Shown here piece by piece: positions 4,850 through 63,026 of a DNA stretch of 64,000 bases (position 1 is its first letter; each line of letters begins with the position of its first letter). The translations under genes were made by a program, and so were the position numbers. Source of the stretch: an uncultured Lachnospiraceae bacterium (GTDB taxonomy: Bacteria; Bacillota; Clostridia; Lachnospirales; Lachnospiraceae); NCBI GenBank assembly GCA_947588675.1, contig CANPYY010000012.1, positions 1 to 64,000 of the forward strand. Direction: 5' to 3'. The notes below the pieces were generated by a model. That model made no database searches and was not told where the DNA came from. It saw nothing but the letters and a program-made list of their open reading frames with translations.

Positions 4850-6370
4850 TTAAATTTTTTTCTTTAACCTGACTGCCATGTATGGCCGTTTCGGCAAATC
4901 AATTTTGAATTTTCCTTTAAAAATACCGACTTTTTTTATTGTCATATTCCAGGTATCAATAACCTCTGCTTCATACTCGGTTTCATCATCTATATGAAAA
5001 ATTTTATACGACGGCTGCATGAAACTGTAATAATATATAAAATAAGTGTTATTATTCCTTTCCGTATCATCCTGTGGCACTGCAGTCACACCCATATAAT
5101 CCATTTTAGCATCAGAGGTAAGACCAAGCCCTGGAGTTTCACACATAATCCTATGAAGAAATTTCACGCGTTTCCAGCTTTCTCCACGAAGTTTTCCTCC
5201 ATGCGACCACCACAAAACCTTTTCTTTATTCTCATAAGTTTCCCCGTGTCCCGGATATCCGCCTCGCATCGCACATTCCCAAAAACGTCTAACCATTTCT
5301 TCGGCTGTAATATTTCCCCAGAAATGAGGGATATCACCCTCGTATGCCATTTCATCTATAACTACGGGTTTCTGATACTTTTTACGCCACTCATTCGTAC
5401 ATTCTGCAGTTTTATATATATCCTGTCTTTGTATGGAGCAATGCGTAATCCACGGGCGCGTATAATCATAAAACGGAATACAGTTATGTATTGAACGCAG
5501 ATGCCCGTAGGGGTCTTTCTCACATATTATCTGCGCATATCTTTCCCAGTCATCTATCGTCTTATCAAGAATATCGTACTCATTCGCAAGCGACCACCAT
5601 ACATTATGATAAGCTGCAAACCTTGCTACAATATAATTTATATACAAATCATCCTCATATGCACTCATTTTTGAAAATCCCCACCTGTCATATGGGTGCA
5701 TTATGATAATGTCGGCTTCTATTCCAATATCGCCAAGCTCTTTAATACACTTTTCAATATGCCTGAAATGCACAGGATTAAATCTTGTAAAATCCCACTC
5801 ATTATTTTCCTTTGGATTATTCGTATATTCCCAAAAATTATCATCTGTCAGTACAGAATTATCCATTGGCGTACCTTCATACGGATATGATCTGGGCTCG
5901 TTAAAATTATAATCATAATGTTTAGGGAAAATACAGAAACGTATTTTATTAAATCCTGATTCAGAAAGACTTTCCAATGTTTCTTTAATCCTGTCATCGC
6001 TCTGCAGTTCCCATACATAACACGTTGTACCTACAGAATAATACGGCGTATTATCCTCATATTTAAAATGATATGTATCAGAAACCCTAACAGGACCATG
6101 ATTGCCATCTTTTGCAGGAAATACTTCAAATTCTCCACTGACAATACCGGCATCCGAATAGTTTCCTGTTATCTCATAATTGTAAATCCCTTCATATGAC
6201 GGCATAAACCTTACTTTATATATACCGTCGCCATCGTAAAAGCCATCAACCTTTATTTCCTCATCCGCACATTTAAACACGCCACGGATAGTATAGTCCG
6301 TAAACGGATTACCTGCTGTATTACCACTAAGCGCAATTTCAAAAATATCCCATTTGAATACTTTATCCAT
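4850..6370 (-). CDS. DUF5060/DUF4038/DUF5605-type putative glycoside hydrolase
   Basis: N-terminal beta domain (KWDIFEIALSGNTAGNPFTDYTIRGVF), TIM-barrel-like DUF4038 region (VGTTCYVWELQSDDRIKETLESLSESGFNKIRFCIFP) and C-terminal beta domain. Confidence 0.75.
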   Translation of the reverse strand: MDKVFKWDIFEIALSGNTAGNPFTDYTIRGVFKCADEEIKVDGFYDGDGIYKVRFMPSYEGIYNYEITGNYSDAGIVSGEFEVFPAKDGNHGPVRVSDTYHFKYEDNTPYYSVGTTCYVWELQSDDRIKETLESLSESGFNKIRFCIFPKHYDYNFNEPRSYPYEGTPMDNSVLTDDNFWEYTNNPKENNEWDFTRFNPVHFRHIEKCIKELGDIGIEADIIIMHPYDRWGFSKMSAYEDDLYINYIVARFAAYHNVWWSLANEYDILDKTIDDWERYAQIICEKDPYGHLRSIHNCIPFYDYTRPWITHCSIQRQDIYKTAECTNEWRKKYQKPVVIDEMAYEGDIPHFWGNITAEEMVRRFWECAMRGGYPGHGETYENKEKVLWWSHGGKLRGESWKRVKFLHRIMCETPGLGLTSDAKMDYMGVTAVPQDDTERNNNTYFIYYYSFMQPSYKIFHIDDETEYEAEVIDTWNMTIKKVGIFKGKFKIDLPKRPYMAVRLKKKI

Positions 6371-58766: not shown

Positions 58767-60152
58767 CTAAATCATTTCTTTATATTCAACCAAGCTTACA
58801 TTACCCATCTTATTTGCCCTGTCAATGCAACTCTTTGTAAAACCTGATTTTGAGAACATGTAGTAATATTTTGTTTTATAATTAAATAGTTCGCTTCGTT
58901 TTACGAGCGTTTCCAAAACGCCAAGTTCAACCTTTTCATTTGTCCATTTACATTCCGCAAACAGAGCTGTGTTTTTATCCTGTTCACCCATAATATCAAT
59001 TTCGGCCTGGACTTTTTCCTTTGGGTCGTTGCCCCACCAACGTCCAAGAGATTTAAACTCTACCGGGCAGTTGCCGGAAATAAGCTGATTCCAAAGATAC
59101 TGTTTGCAGATTTCTTCAAAAACCTTACCCATATAGTCAGAAAGCTGAGGTTCAATACGTTTATAAGCCAAATCGGCAGCGCCGCGGGCAATGATTGAAT
59201 TGTTATTAAGCACAAACCGATACCAGAAACGAAACATATTATCCTCAATGGAATAAACTGACTTTCTGGAAGTCTTTTCGCCGTAAGGCGTTTCTTTCTG
59301 TACGATTCCAAGATTGATAAGGTTTTTAATATAATTCGTGCATACATTGGTATCTTCACCGACCTTGCTTGAAATCTCTGACATTCTTGATGACCCTGTT
59401 GCAATGGCTGTTATAATTGCCGTATAAATAGCAGGTTCACGGACTTCCTGTTTTAAGAGGTTTACCGGTTCCTCGTAAAGAAATGACATTGGATTGAGGT
59501 ATGTGTTTTTTATGTTATACTCTATGCTTAACTTGTCACTCATCTGCAAAAGATACTGCGGTGTGCCACCTGCAATGCCGTAAATAAGCGCTTTATCTTC
59601 ATCAGACAAATTTTTAAAATAAATACAGGTTTCTTCAAAGCTAAACGGCTGCAGTTTAATTTGTGCCGTTCTTCTGCCGTAGAGAGGCGCTTTATAGGCA
59701 AGCACATGTTCTTCCATATATGACATGGAAGAACCGCAAAGAATAAACATTAATTTTGATGTGTCTTTATATTTGTCAATTAAAAACTGTAAGGTAGATG
59801 CAAGACTTTTTGACGCACGCGCCACATAAGGATATTCGTCAATCGCAAGGATGATTCTTTCTTTTTCTGCTAGCTTAAATATATATTCAAATGCAGCCTG
59901 GAATGAAAGAAAAGAGGATTCCGTTTCAATACCGTTTGCAAACTCCATAATGCTTTTTGAAAAGTTCTCAAGATTCTGCTTTGCATTACTTTCAACACCC
60001 ATAAAATATATTGCTTTTTTATCGCTGATAAACTGATTGATAAGTGCAGTTTTGCCTACACGCCGTCTACCGTAGATAACCGCAAATTCAAATTTATTCG
60101 ATTTATATAAATTATCAAGAGTATTAAGTTCACGTTCTCTGCCTATAAACAT
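58767..60152 (-). CDS. AAA ATPase with DUF234-type C-terminal domain
   Basis: FAVIYGRRRVGKTALINQF; IILAIDEYPYVA; C-terminal AEIDIMGEQDKNTALFAECKW. Confidence 0.87.
   Translation of the reverse strand: MFIGRERELNTLDNLYKSNKFEFAVIYGRRRVGKTALINQFISDKKAIYFMGVESNAKQNLENFSKSIMEFANGIETESSFLSFQAAFEYIFKLAEKERIILAIDEYPYVARASKSLASTLQFLIDKYKDTSKLMFILCGSSMSYMEEHVLAYKAPLYGRRTAQIKLQPFSFEETCIYFKNLSDEDKALIYGIAGGTPQYLLQMSDKLSIEYNIKNTYLNPMSFLYEEPVNLLKQEVREPAIYTAIITAIATGSSRMSEISSKVGEDTNVCTNYIKNLINLGIVQKETPYGEKTSRKSVYSIEDNMFRFWYRFVLNNNSIIARGAADLAYKRIEPQLSDYMGKVFEEICKQYLWNQLISGNCPVEFKSLGRWWGNDPKEKVQAEIDIMGEQDKNTALFAECKWTNEKVELGVLETLVKRSELFNYKTKYYYMFSKSGFTKSCIDRANKMGNVSLVEYKEMI
58782..58813. repeat. 32-bp direct repeat, right copy
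   Basis: Identical to 54979-55010; encodes the ATPase C-terminus KMGNVSLVEY. Confidence 0.95.
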
Positions 60153-60198
60153 TTACGCAACCTCCATCTTAGGTTGTTTATATTATAGTATACAAAAA

Positions 60199-60243
60199 CA
60201 AATTAGTCAAGTATAAATGAGTAATTTACACTTGACTAATTTG
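60199..60243 (-). promoter_or_regulatory. 45-bp near-palindrome: terminator and/or operator-promoter
   Basis: Perfect outer 14-bp arms CAAATTAGTCAAGT / ACTTGACTAATTTG, extended inward to about 20 bp with one G-U pair. Contains TTGACT, 17 nt before TATAAT, for the ATPase. Confidence 0.65.
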
Positions 60244-60259
60244 AAAGGTTCATATAAAT

Positions 60260-60820
60260 TTAAATACTTTGTCCGTCATGGAACGCTTCGCCAACACGTT
60301 CCGTTACCTTGTAATAACCATGCGTATATGGATCAAAAGCGATAGCATTCACTAAGGACATATCAAGCTTTCCGTTTGGCATTACACTTTCGTTGGCAGT
60401 AACATTAACAACCTTGCCAATAACCCCGCAGCCATATTCATTATTTTGATATTCAATATATTTACATTCCAGGCAAAGCGGAAATTCATTGATAACAGGC
60501 GCATCTACACTCTCTGCCTTAGCAGCGGTAAGACCTGCTTTTTCAAGCTTATTTTCAATGCTGTTGCCGGACACAACACCAAAATAATCTGCCGCTGCAA
60601 CATGAGCGGCATCAGCAATGCTTACCGTAAACGCGCCTCTTTCTTTTATATTTTTAACCGTCTTATGCGTTTCGGTCAAATTTAGTACCACTGTGTCTCT
60701 CGCCTGCATCGTTCCCCATGCGGCGTTCATGACATTTACGCTGCCGTCTTCATTATAAGTAGCGACCATTAACACAGGCATAGGAAAAATTCCTTCTGTA
60801 ATATCTAATTTTTTTCTCAT
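60260..60820 (-). CDS. Flavin reductase-family protein
   Basis: MPVLMVATYNEDGSVNVMNAAWGT, LTETHKTVKNIKERGAFTVSI, GVVSGNSIENKLEKAGLT. Confidence 0.87.
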   Translation of the reverse strand: MRKKLDITEGIFPMPVLMVATYNEDGSVNVMNAAWGTMQARDTVVLNLTETHKTVKNIKERGAFTVSIADAAHVAAADYFGVVSGNSIENKLEKAGLTAAKAESVDAPVINEFPLCLECKYIEYQNNEYGCGVIGKVVNVTANESVMPNGKLDMSLVNAIAFDPYTHGYYKVTERVGEAFHDGQSI

Positions 60821-60915: not shown

Positions 60916-62262
60916 TTACAAACCGGTAATATCCAAATCTACTATCATCCGACCGATTTTTTGCTCCTGCAAAAGATAACACATATAAATCGGAAGATAT
61001 GTTACAACTCCTTCTGTTTCTACATTTCCGACAGAAAAAACATACGCTTTTTCAATATGATAATCCGGAATACTAATAAAATTATCCAAAGCTTTGTGCT
61101 TTTTATATGCTTTTCCTGATTTAACTTCTATCGGAACAACTTTTCCATTCATTTCTATTACAAAATCCAACTCGCCTACATTCTTTTTTTTACAAAAATA
61201 TGGCTCAAATCCATTTGCAGTTAATTGCTGTGTAACGGCATTTTCAAAATGAGCTCCGTTATTTACTTCTCCGTTTTTATTAATTAATTCAATTTTTGTT
61301 TCAGAAGGATATGCGCTTGTAAGCAAACCAATATCACTCGAAAACAGCCGGAATACATTACTGCTCTTGCTCGCCAAAAGCGGGATGACCGGCGCCGCAA
61401 CGTTATAAACCGGCAAAGCCACGCCTGCATCCTTCAGCCATAAAAAACTATTTTCATATCTATTAAACTTAAGCTCTTTATCCAGCATGGTAAAAACAAA
61501 TTTCTTATTCTGTTTATTTAATTCAGCTGGAATAAGATCATATATGGAGCGCAGCTTAAGTTTCCGATTCTCAATTTCATATTGTGAAAAATCTTCTTTA
61601 TAAAGCGTTATAATGTCTCGCTGAACTTTATCAACCTCTCTGATGTCCTTTGTTTCGATATAGGTTTTTACAGCATCCGGCATTCCCCCAACAATAAGAT
61701 ATACAAAAAACATATTTAAAAGTTTCTGATGTATGAATTCATCCACGGGGGTGCATGTTTCAAATTTCTCTTTCAGCATCTCTAACGTAGTTTTTGATAC
61801 ATTATTTGCCATCATAAATTCTTCAAAATCCATAGGGTACATCTTTAAAATGGTCAGGTACCCCACAGGCGCTGAATCTAGCCCCTTGAGTGAAACACCT
61901 AATAAAGAACCGCTCATTACATATTTAAAACTTCCTTCATCTACAAGAAATTTAATTTTTGTTACTATTTGGGGGCATTTCTGAATTTCATCAAAAAAGA
62001 TAACTGTCTCATGCGGTTTACAGTCTTCCGGCATTATCATTTTCAATTTAATTAAAAATTCTTCTGCGCTCATTTCCGCATTTAGATACTCGACCATATC
62101 CGGCTGGTCGATAAAATTTACTTCATATTTGGTGTAACCACTCTTTTCAATCTCATCTCTTATAAGCCAGGTCTTTCCTGTCTGCCTTGCTCCTGTTACC
62201 AGCAGCGCCTTATTCGAATTTTCAAGCCATTCTTCAACAATGATTGAATATTTTCTATACAT
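60916..62262 (-). CDS. AAA ATPase with DUF4143 and C-terminal nuclease-like motif
   Basis: ALLVTGARQTGKTWLIR; VIFFDEIQKCPQ; GELDFVIEMNGKVVPIEVKSGKAYKKHKAL. Confidence 0.9.
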   Translation of the reverse strand: MYRKYSIIVEEWLENSNKALLVTGARQTGKTWLIRDEIEKSGYTKYEVNFIDQPDMVEYLNAEMSAEEFLIKLKMIMPEDCKPHETVIFFDEIQKCPQIVTKIKFLVDEGSFKYVMSGSLLGVSLKGLDSAPVGYLTILKMYPMDFEEFMMANNVSKTTLEMLKEKFETCTPVDEFIHQKLLNMFFVYLIVGGMPDAVKTYIETKDIREVDKVQRDIITLYKEDFSQYEIENRKLKLRSIYDLIPAELNKQNKKFVFTMLDKELKFNRYENSFLWLKDAGVALPVYNVAAPVIPLLASKSSNVFRLFSSDIGLLTSAYPSETKIELINKNGEVNNGAHFENAVTQQLTANGFEPYFCKKKNVGELDFVIEMNGKVVPIEVKSGKAYKKHKALDNFISIPDYHIEKAYVFSVGNVETEGVVTYLPIYMCYLLQEQKIGRMIVDLDITGL

Positions 62263-62282
62263 AAATGAATACCTCCATATTT

Positions 62283-62311
62283 ATAATACATCATTTGCCC
62301 CGTTTTTTCAA
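62283..62311 (-). promoter_or_regulatory. Promoter of the DUF4143 ATPase
   Basis: Minus: TTGAAA-17-TATTAT, with GGAGG upstream of the ATG. Confidence 0.65.
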
Positions 62312-62372
62312 CCATTATTGTAATATATTGCCCCGTTTTTCTCATATTTATCCACGTGTTTTGCCCCGTTTT
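62295..62372 (-). repeat. Three 12-bp iterons at 33-bp period
   Basis: TTGCCCCGTTTT at 62295, 62328 and 62361 (minus: AAAACGGGGCAA). Confidence 0.92.
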
Positions 62373-62401: not shown

Positions 62402-62809
62402 TCACAGCCGTTCCAATAATTCCGACGGTTTGATTGCTGTAACCTTGCCACCGCTAAAATCCCTGATATTTCTTGTGACAATATAGTCTGCGTGTATTCT
62501 CGATGCGCAAGCGTTCTGTATGGCGTCCTCATAATCCTTAAATTTCAAATTAGCTGCTTTTTTCAGGTCGTCCGCTTTCAAGTCTGCAACATTAAAAATC
62601 AGCATCAGTTTATCCAAAATTTCTTTTATCTTTCCTGGCTCCAACTCCTTGCGCATAATATATACGATATTGGGAATGGAGAGGGCAGAAATATACCCTG
62701 ATATTTTATTTACCTCACACATCTTAAAAATCTTTTCGGATGCCTCCAAAAACTCCTGCCGGCTGCATAGAACATCGAGAATGACATTTGTATCAATCAG
62801 CACTTTCAT
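62402..62809 (-). CDS. PIN-domain toxin
   Basis: MKVLIDTNVILDVL; KFKDYEDAIQNACA; DYIVTRNIRDF. Confidence 0.9.
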   Translation of the reverse strand: MKVLIDTNVILDVLCSRQEFLEASEKIFKMCEVNKISGYISALSIPNIVYIMRKELEPGKIKEILDKLMLIFNVADLKADDLKKAANLKFKDYEDAIQNACASRIHADYIVTRNIRDFSGGKVTAIKPSELLERL

Positions 62810-63026
62810 ATTTTTTCATTCTCTCCGTTCTGATTTTTTTATCGTCATAGTTTCCCGACAACACGCCTATGAGAGAGTCCGTGAGGAAAGAAACGCTTCT
62901 TTCCTTGGAAATCAGCCTTGCTACTTCCTTACCGTTTTTCAGCACAATCACCTCTTCGCCTCTTTGAACTATAGAAAGATATTTTCCAAAATTGTTTTGA
63001 ACCTCAGTGGCAGTTGCAATTGTCAT
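62793..63026 (-). CDS. Phd/YefM-family antitoxin
   Basis: ATATEVQNNFGKYLSIVQRGEEVIVLKNGKEVARLIS; overlaps the downstream PIN gene. Confidence 0.88.
   Translation of the reverse strand: MTIATATEVQNNFGKYLSIVQRGEEVIVLKNGKEVARLISKERSVSFLTDSLIGVLSGNYDDKKIRTERMKKYESAD

Follow-up and report, generated by a model that had tools for sequence, protein, structure and literature searches.

What reads three direct repeats in the promoter of a DUF4143 ATPase gene, and to what effect? The repeats lie near one end of the 64,000-nt stretch of Lachnospiraceae DNA analysed here (the window), upstream of a gene of the PDC-S01 family. The reading that we consider probable is that the encoded ATPase-nuclease binds its own array and thereby keeps its promoter repressed, both steps being inferred from sequence comparisons.

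The array and its gene

On the forward strand the repeat reads TTGCCCCGTTTT, i.e. AAAACGGGGCAA on the gene strand. The initial annotation had described three copies at an exact period of 33 bp, with unrelated sequence between them and the gene-proximal copy inside the spacer of a TTGAAA-17-TATTAT promoter; all of this was borne out, with the promoter on the minus strand, 20 nt 5' of the ATG (Table 1). Its remark that the period is near three helical turns also holds, as 33 bp corresponds to 3.14 turns at 10.5 bp per turn, and the copies therefore lie on nearly one face of the DNA. We use 'iteron' as a name for these repeats only, without implying a replication origin.

Beyond these three, the window holds no further exact copy of TTGCCCCGTTTT, and an exact 12-mer occurring three times at equal spacing was found in the window only here and in one coding repeat (7820), and in 0 of 40 Markov-simulated windows. 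The genome itself contains the array plus one extra exact copy, located in a coding region whose product has an HD-GYP-like C-terminus (read by eye). A regulon reading was rejected, since the motif is present just once outside the array, and this inside a coding gene.

Table 1. Positions of the array, the promoter and the PDC-S01 gene in the window
Feature	Position	Strand	Remarks
Iteron 1, gene-proximal, AAAACGGGGCAA	62295-62306	-	within the -35/-10 spacer
Iteron 2, AAAACGGGGCAA	62328-62339	-	
Iteron 3, distal, AAAACGGGGCAA	62361-62372	-	end of the segment common with the nearest relative
Promoter TTGAAA-17-TATTAT	62283-62311	-	TTGAAA 62311-62306, 17-nt spacer 62305-62289, TATTAT 62288-62283; same layout in 22/26 close orthologues
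Ribosome-binding site GGAGG	62272-62276	-	
PDC-S01 gene, 448 aa	60916-62262	-	start codon ATG 62262-62260; AAA_14 ATPase, helix/strand segment and DUF4143
AAA_14 domain, residues 17-150	61813-62214	-	Walker A GARQTGK, Walker B IFFDE
Helix/strand (winged-helix-like) segment, residues 237-310	61333-61554	-	topology only
Nuclease-like C-terminal domain, residues 311-448	60919-61332	-	conserved E340, D366, E379, K381

The protein matches the Pfam families AAA_14 (E=3.8e-25, 88.8 bits against a cut-off of 27) and DUF4143 (E=3.5e-25, 89 bits against 28.1), and the PADLOC PDC-S01 model PDLC04792 over nearly its full length (residues 1-446, E=1.5e-186). PDC-S01 is described as an unvalidated single-gene phage-defence candidate in which an ATPase is fused to the PD-(D/E)XK superfamily (PMC12988326). 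Across 62 sequences D366, E379 and K381 were invariant and E340 was at least 90% conserved, as expected of a PD-(D/E)XK nuclease, making nuclease activity a putative property of the family. The full-length model was confident (mean pLDDT 87, pTM 0.87), and Foldseek against the PDB placed the archaeal ATPases 2qen and 2fna first, followed by AAA proteins including ORC/Cdc6, with low TM-scores; against viral structures it returned weak AAA matches, chiefly to the clamp loader and other ATPases, and phmmer against the PDB returned nothing but a Cas4 match (E=0.8). Since residues 193-312 modelled alone did not give a confident fold (pLDDT 70, pTM 0.40, no PDB match), the label winged-helix-like is a topology reading of the full-length model, which also leans on the weak matches to 2qen and 2fna.

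Downstream of the gene follow a flavin reductase-like gene and then a PDC-S27 (DUF234) ATPase candidate (58767-60152), beyond which inspection of the ORF list revealed type I restriction-modification genes. The PDC-S27 gene has a palindromic element, ATTAGTCAAGTGTAAATTACTCATTTATACTTGACTAAT, near its promoter (60153-60260), and the best self-match lag upstream of its homologues (L212-L241) was 15 bp in 18/29 cases versus 6/109 controls. On the other side, immediately 5' of the array, are a Phd-type antitoxin gene and a PIN-domain gene whose start it overlaps (62402-63026); in L013, the nearest relative, this place is taken by other sequence.

Conservation of the period and divergence of the motif

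The homologue sample consisted of 79 related loci, plus further loci from genome searches. In close orthologues (69-96% identity) the same motif recurs 5' of the start codon at 33 bp spacing, usually in three copies, sometimes in two or four; AAAACGGGGCAA arrays are present in L013-L029, L031-L033 and L035; in L034, L036 and L043 the gene is truncated or frameshifted and the copies are fewer or degenerate. Such disrupted or frameshifted PDC-S01 genes are common, the degenerate arrays being those of L043 and L036. A TTGNNN-N17/18-T[AG]NNNT promoter encloses the last copy in 22 of the 26 close orthologues.

More distant homologues (33-50% identity) carry arrays of 32-34 bp period with a motif unlike AAAACGGGGCAA, e.g. 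TTGGAAAAGCGTAAAA in L044-L051, AAATCTTGATTTGGTG in L058-L062, AAAAATCTCAAAAATGTG in L065, TTAAGGTCAGAGGAA in a Thermoplasmata MAG (L073), AATCTTGTTTTGGTG in a member of the Spirochaetaceae (L091) and GGAAAAACGGACAAA in L102, L105 and L108. Array-bearing representatives were found in Bacillota, Bacteroidota, Spirochaetota, Chlamydiota, Actinomycetota, Pseudomonadota and the one Thermoplasmata MAG, and an iteron immediately precedes a TAnnTTTG box in many loci of the Bacteroidota. The initial annotation had named the lack of similar arrays upstream of orthologues as grounds for its own refutation; what we found was the same motif in close orthologues, whereas most distant homologues have kept the period but not the motif. 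The array is thus conserved and family-wide, beyond the single locus first described, and the suggestion of an iteron-regulated promoter, with presumed cooperative binding and possible autoregulation, is supported by these comparisons.

The best self-match lag was exactly 33 bp in 77 of 105 homologue upstream regions versus 14 of 315 control segments from the same loci, the others being mostly at 32, 34 or near 66. A lag-33 score of at least 10 was reached by 89/105 homologue upstream regions versus 9/277 upstream regions of other ORFs, four of these nine (L064, L081 and L087 twice, on both strands) adjoining further ORFs that appear PDC-S01-like as judged from their N-termini; a clear 33-bp array was absent from 12/105. 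Across 110 arrays, in a count that includes some spurious distant 'copies', neighbouring copies were spaced at 33 bp 218 times, at 32 bp 19 times and at 34 bp 10 times. Most homologues from IMG/VR (20 loci) also had a best lag of 33, or of 33 tied with 66. Among plasmid-borne homologues, that of Agathobacter had a lag of 33, and those of Vibrio, Acinetobacter and Criblamydia one of 32 or 64; the lag was 66 in Parabacteroides and also in Collinsella and Glaesserella, where 33 came second, as it did behind 42 in Vescimonas. A search starting from the DNA in 391 genomes of the class recovered one other array, 5' of a 75%-identical homologue.

It is very improbable that the repeats are merely duplicated promoter segments without a dedicated binding protein. 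Each unit does contain A-tracts, and promoter-like words occur in some families; against this, the 12-16 bp core is conserved between unrelated spacers, and the 33-bp period is held over many divergent lineages despite a low background frequency of lag 33.

The period goes with the branch of the family, as seen among paralogues in G429-G433, so our statements on 33-bp arrays are confined to the branch of about 450 aa (PDLC04792/04786 type), which mostly has 33 bp, L204 having 34 and the archaeal L183 having 32. The branch with an 'MKxYKPRIAD' N-terminus (L156, L158, L161, L193 and also L207) has a 23-bp period and other motifs, and periods of about 32, 41, 45 and 50-51 bp occur in others. A clear array was not found in the RDxYL DUF4143 branch (L187, L188 and L211). 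Several further observations concern repeat layout and gene number: in a roughly 50%-identical branch (L038, L101 and L104) the core occurs in inverted pairs, e.g. GCAAAACGGGGCATTTTGCCCCGTTTTGC; L025 has a repeat of ~24 bp at 33-bp lag 5' of a flagellin-like ORF (~5330-5550); and MAGs G432, G431 and G429 (L152-L201) contain up to 29 DUF4143 matches in 2.6 Mb, an archaeal MAG 13 in 1.4 Mb.

The probable reader of the repeats

Motif similarity climbs with protein identity, from ~6-7 below 36% to 17 above 80%, a relation that was seen in the forward orientation only. With the identity of the rest of the protein fixed, the partial r was +0.22 for residues 237-310, +0.15 for residues 311-448 and -0.04 for the AAA domain, modest correlations over pairs that are not independent; residues 237-310 outranked the nuclease segment in about two thirds of half-samples, a ranking that is not firm, and single-column co-variation, with columns 303 and 277 on top, is suggestive only. 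Motif similarity thus tracks the C-terminal half, if modestly, and not the AAA domain. Such parallel change in motif spelling and protein suggests that every one of these proteins recognises its own gene and controls it.

Genomes with many paralogues point in the same direction. Of the twelve arrays called in G432, about ten belong to genes of ~430-460 aa, and their motifs mostly differ (L157/L162, L170/L173 and L164/L167 being partly similar pairs). Two motifs were checked genome-wide and formed arrays at their own gene only, the L175 motif of G432 being confined to its own array. Among orthologues the gene neighbours vary and the array stays with the gene. A separate regulator of the ATPase gene that acts through the repeats, i.e. 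a host factor or neighbouring transcription factor bound to them, would have a precedent in a defence island, where the small dedicated repressor RptR binds three direct repeats in its own promoter (PMC12255303). Such a regulator is unlikely here: the array stays with the gene through changes of neighbourhood, motif similarity follows the C-terminal half of the ATPase, and with paralogue motifs mostly different and the motifs checked forming arrays at their own gene only, one would have to invoke many unlinked regulators. The parallel divergence of motif and protein, own-gene-only arrays and the co-transfer of array and gene together favour the ATPase as the reader of its own repeats.

Evidence for co-transfer comes from genes that are 82-99% identical in different contexts. 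Their homology commonly starts 109-151 bp 5' of the ATG, approximately at the outer edge of the array, and ends between -1 and +66 bp around the stop codon, with longer common flanks in some pairs. Array and gene would accordingly travel jointly as a self-regulated unit of ~1.5 kb. Array-bearing genes are mostly chromosomal, with unrelated neighbours and period 33; plasmid copies are occasional. A flank search in the genus did not find an empty site, the flavin-reductase segment being present only in G001, which bears the gene too. A CRISPR- or transposon-like element was rejected on account of the variable boundaries and because neither terminal repeats nor target duplications were seen at the unit boundaries in the orthologue comparisons. 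Anti-defence decoys in viruses were likewise dismissed, since the exact GGGGCA array pair is absent from IMG/VR; PDC-S01 homologues in the virus collection bear their own arrays. In L017, ~110-230 bp 5' of the gene, the array adjoins a CRISPR-repeat-like sequence, GTCGCTCCTCGTATGGGGAGCGTGGATTGAAA, of which two copies are visible.

The array could instead be mainly an address for nuclease or ATPase action, by which a selfish unit of ~1.5 kb would be marked as self, maintained, mobilised, replicated or partitioned, with its promoter overlap secondary. The homology boundaries that array and gene share across different hosts, the nearly invariant nuclease residues, the AAA plus helix/strand architecture, for which Foldseek gave weak matches among archaeal ATPases and ORC/Cdc6 proteins, and the existence of arrays of up to about 5-7 copies, which exceed the needs of repression, would all agree with such a role. 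However, the boundaries vary and lack visible terminal repeats or target duplications, and a copy is located within Bacillota-type and Bacteroidota-type promoters alike, which a mere address does not require; we hold this explanation to be improbable, much as that of a separate regulator.

Promoter overlap in both the TTGNAA/TATNNT and the TAnnTTTG settings points to repression. Under the preferred reading of autorepression by the ATPase-nuclease, the three repeats would form the operator array of the PDC-S01 gene downstream, recognised through the C-terminal half of the protein, i.e. the helix/strand segment and the DUF4143 nuclease region. Occupied copies, about three helical turns apart and on nearly the same face, would probably be bound cooperatively via AAA-type self-association. 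As the gene-proximal copy is placed between the -35 and -10 boxes, its occupancy would block RNA polymerase and keep PDC-S01 expression low, and loss of occupancy would lead to derepression, e.g. if the protein or its ATP state were drawn elsewhere during infection. A private motif for each paralogue would then allow many copies to coexist in one genome without cross-talk. It is tempting to go further and speculate, tentatively, that PDC-S01 ATPase-nucleases are a large class of self-addressing units, in which the C-terminal domain reads a private array that sets regulation and paralogue insulation, and maybe sets or restrains nuclease targeting, with address and reader co-diversifying.

Significance and relation to known systems

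PDC-S01 was reported to be the fourth most common defence across prokaryotes, with about 39,500 detected (PMC12988326), and the open-access papers searched that name PDC-S01 or DUF4143 count it as an unvalidated candidate. Promoter repeats were not found to be mentioned in these open-access papers. The arrays offer each PDC-S01 protein a predicted DNA ligand together with a candidate on/off element for its expression, and a possible means of switching the gene on in phage assays. Should every protein indeed read its own motif, the family would be a large natural collection of mutually orthogonal proteins and operators, from which a recognition code could be worked out; if the self-addressing reading were true, a candidate immune system would contain this large collection of orthogonal pairs of protein and DNA.

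Close at hand in the window, PDC-S27 (AAA + DUF234) is a similar case: this ATPase-nuclease candidate, too, has a repeat element of its own close to the promoter, but a palindromic one, in which the spacing of the half-sites is mostly 15 bp.

Plasmid iterons are several direct repeats beside the gene of the DNA-binding protein that reads them, usually about 19-22 bp long, at about 22 bp spacing and within the origin. The PDC-S01 repeats resemble them as direct repeats adjoining the gene of their presumed DNA-binding reader, but their cores are 12-16 bp long, spaced at 33 bp and located in a promoter, and the PDC-S01 gene is mostly chromosomal.

The nearest published comparison to the array is the RptR operator, in which repeats of 9 bp, each holding the 6-bp palindrome TAGCTA, are bound by a small homodimer, RptR being a separate 9-kDa repressor in a type I RM/DarTG2 defence island (PMC12255303). 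An RptR-type operator was rejected for our locus, as the AAAACGGGGCAA core is without TAGCTA and the period is 33 bp. In contrast to the RptR repeats, those of PDC-S01 are non-palindromic, lie 33 bp apart and have motifs that are unlike between paralogues, and the presumed binder is not a separate repressor but the large ATPase-nuclease itself.
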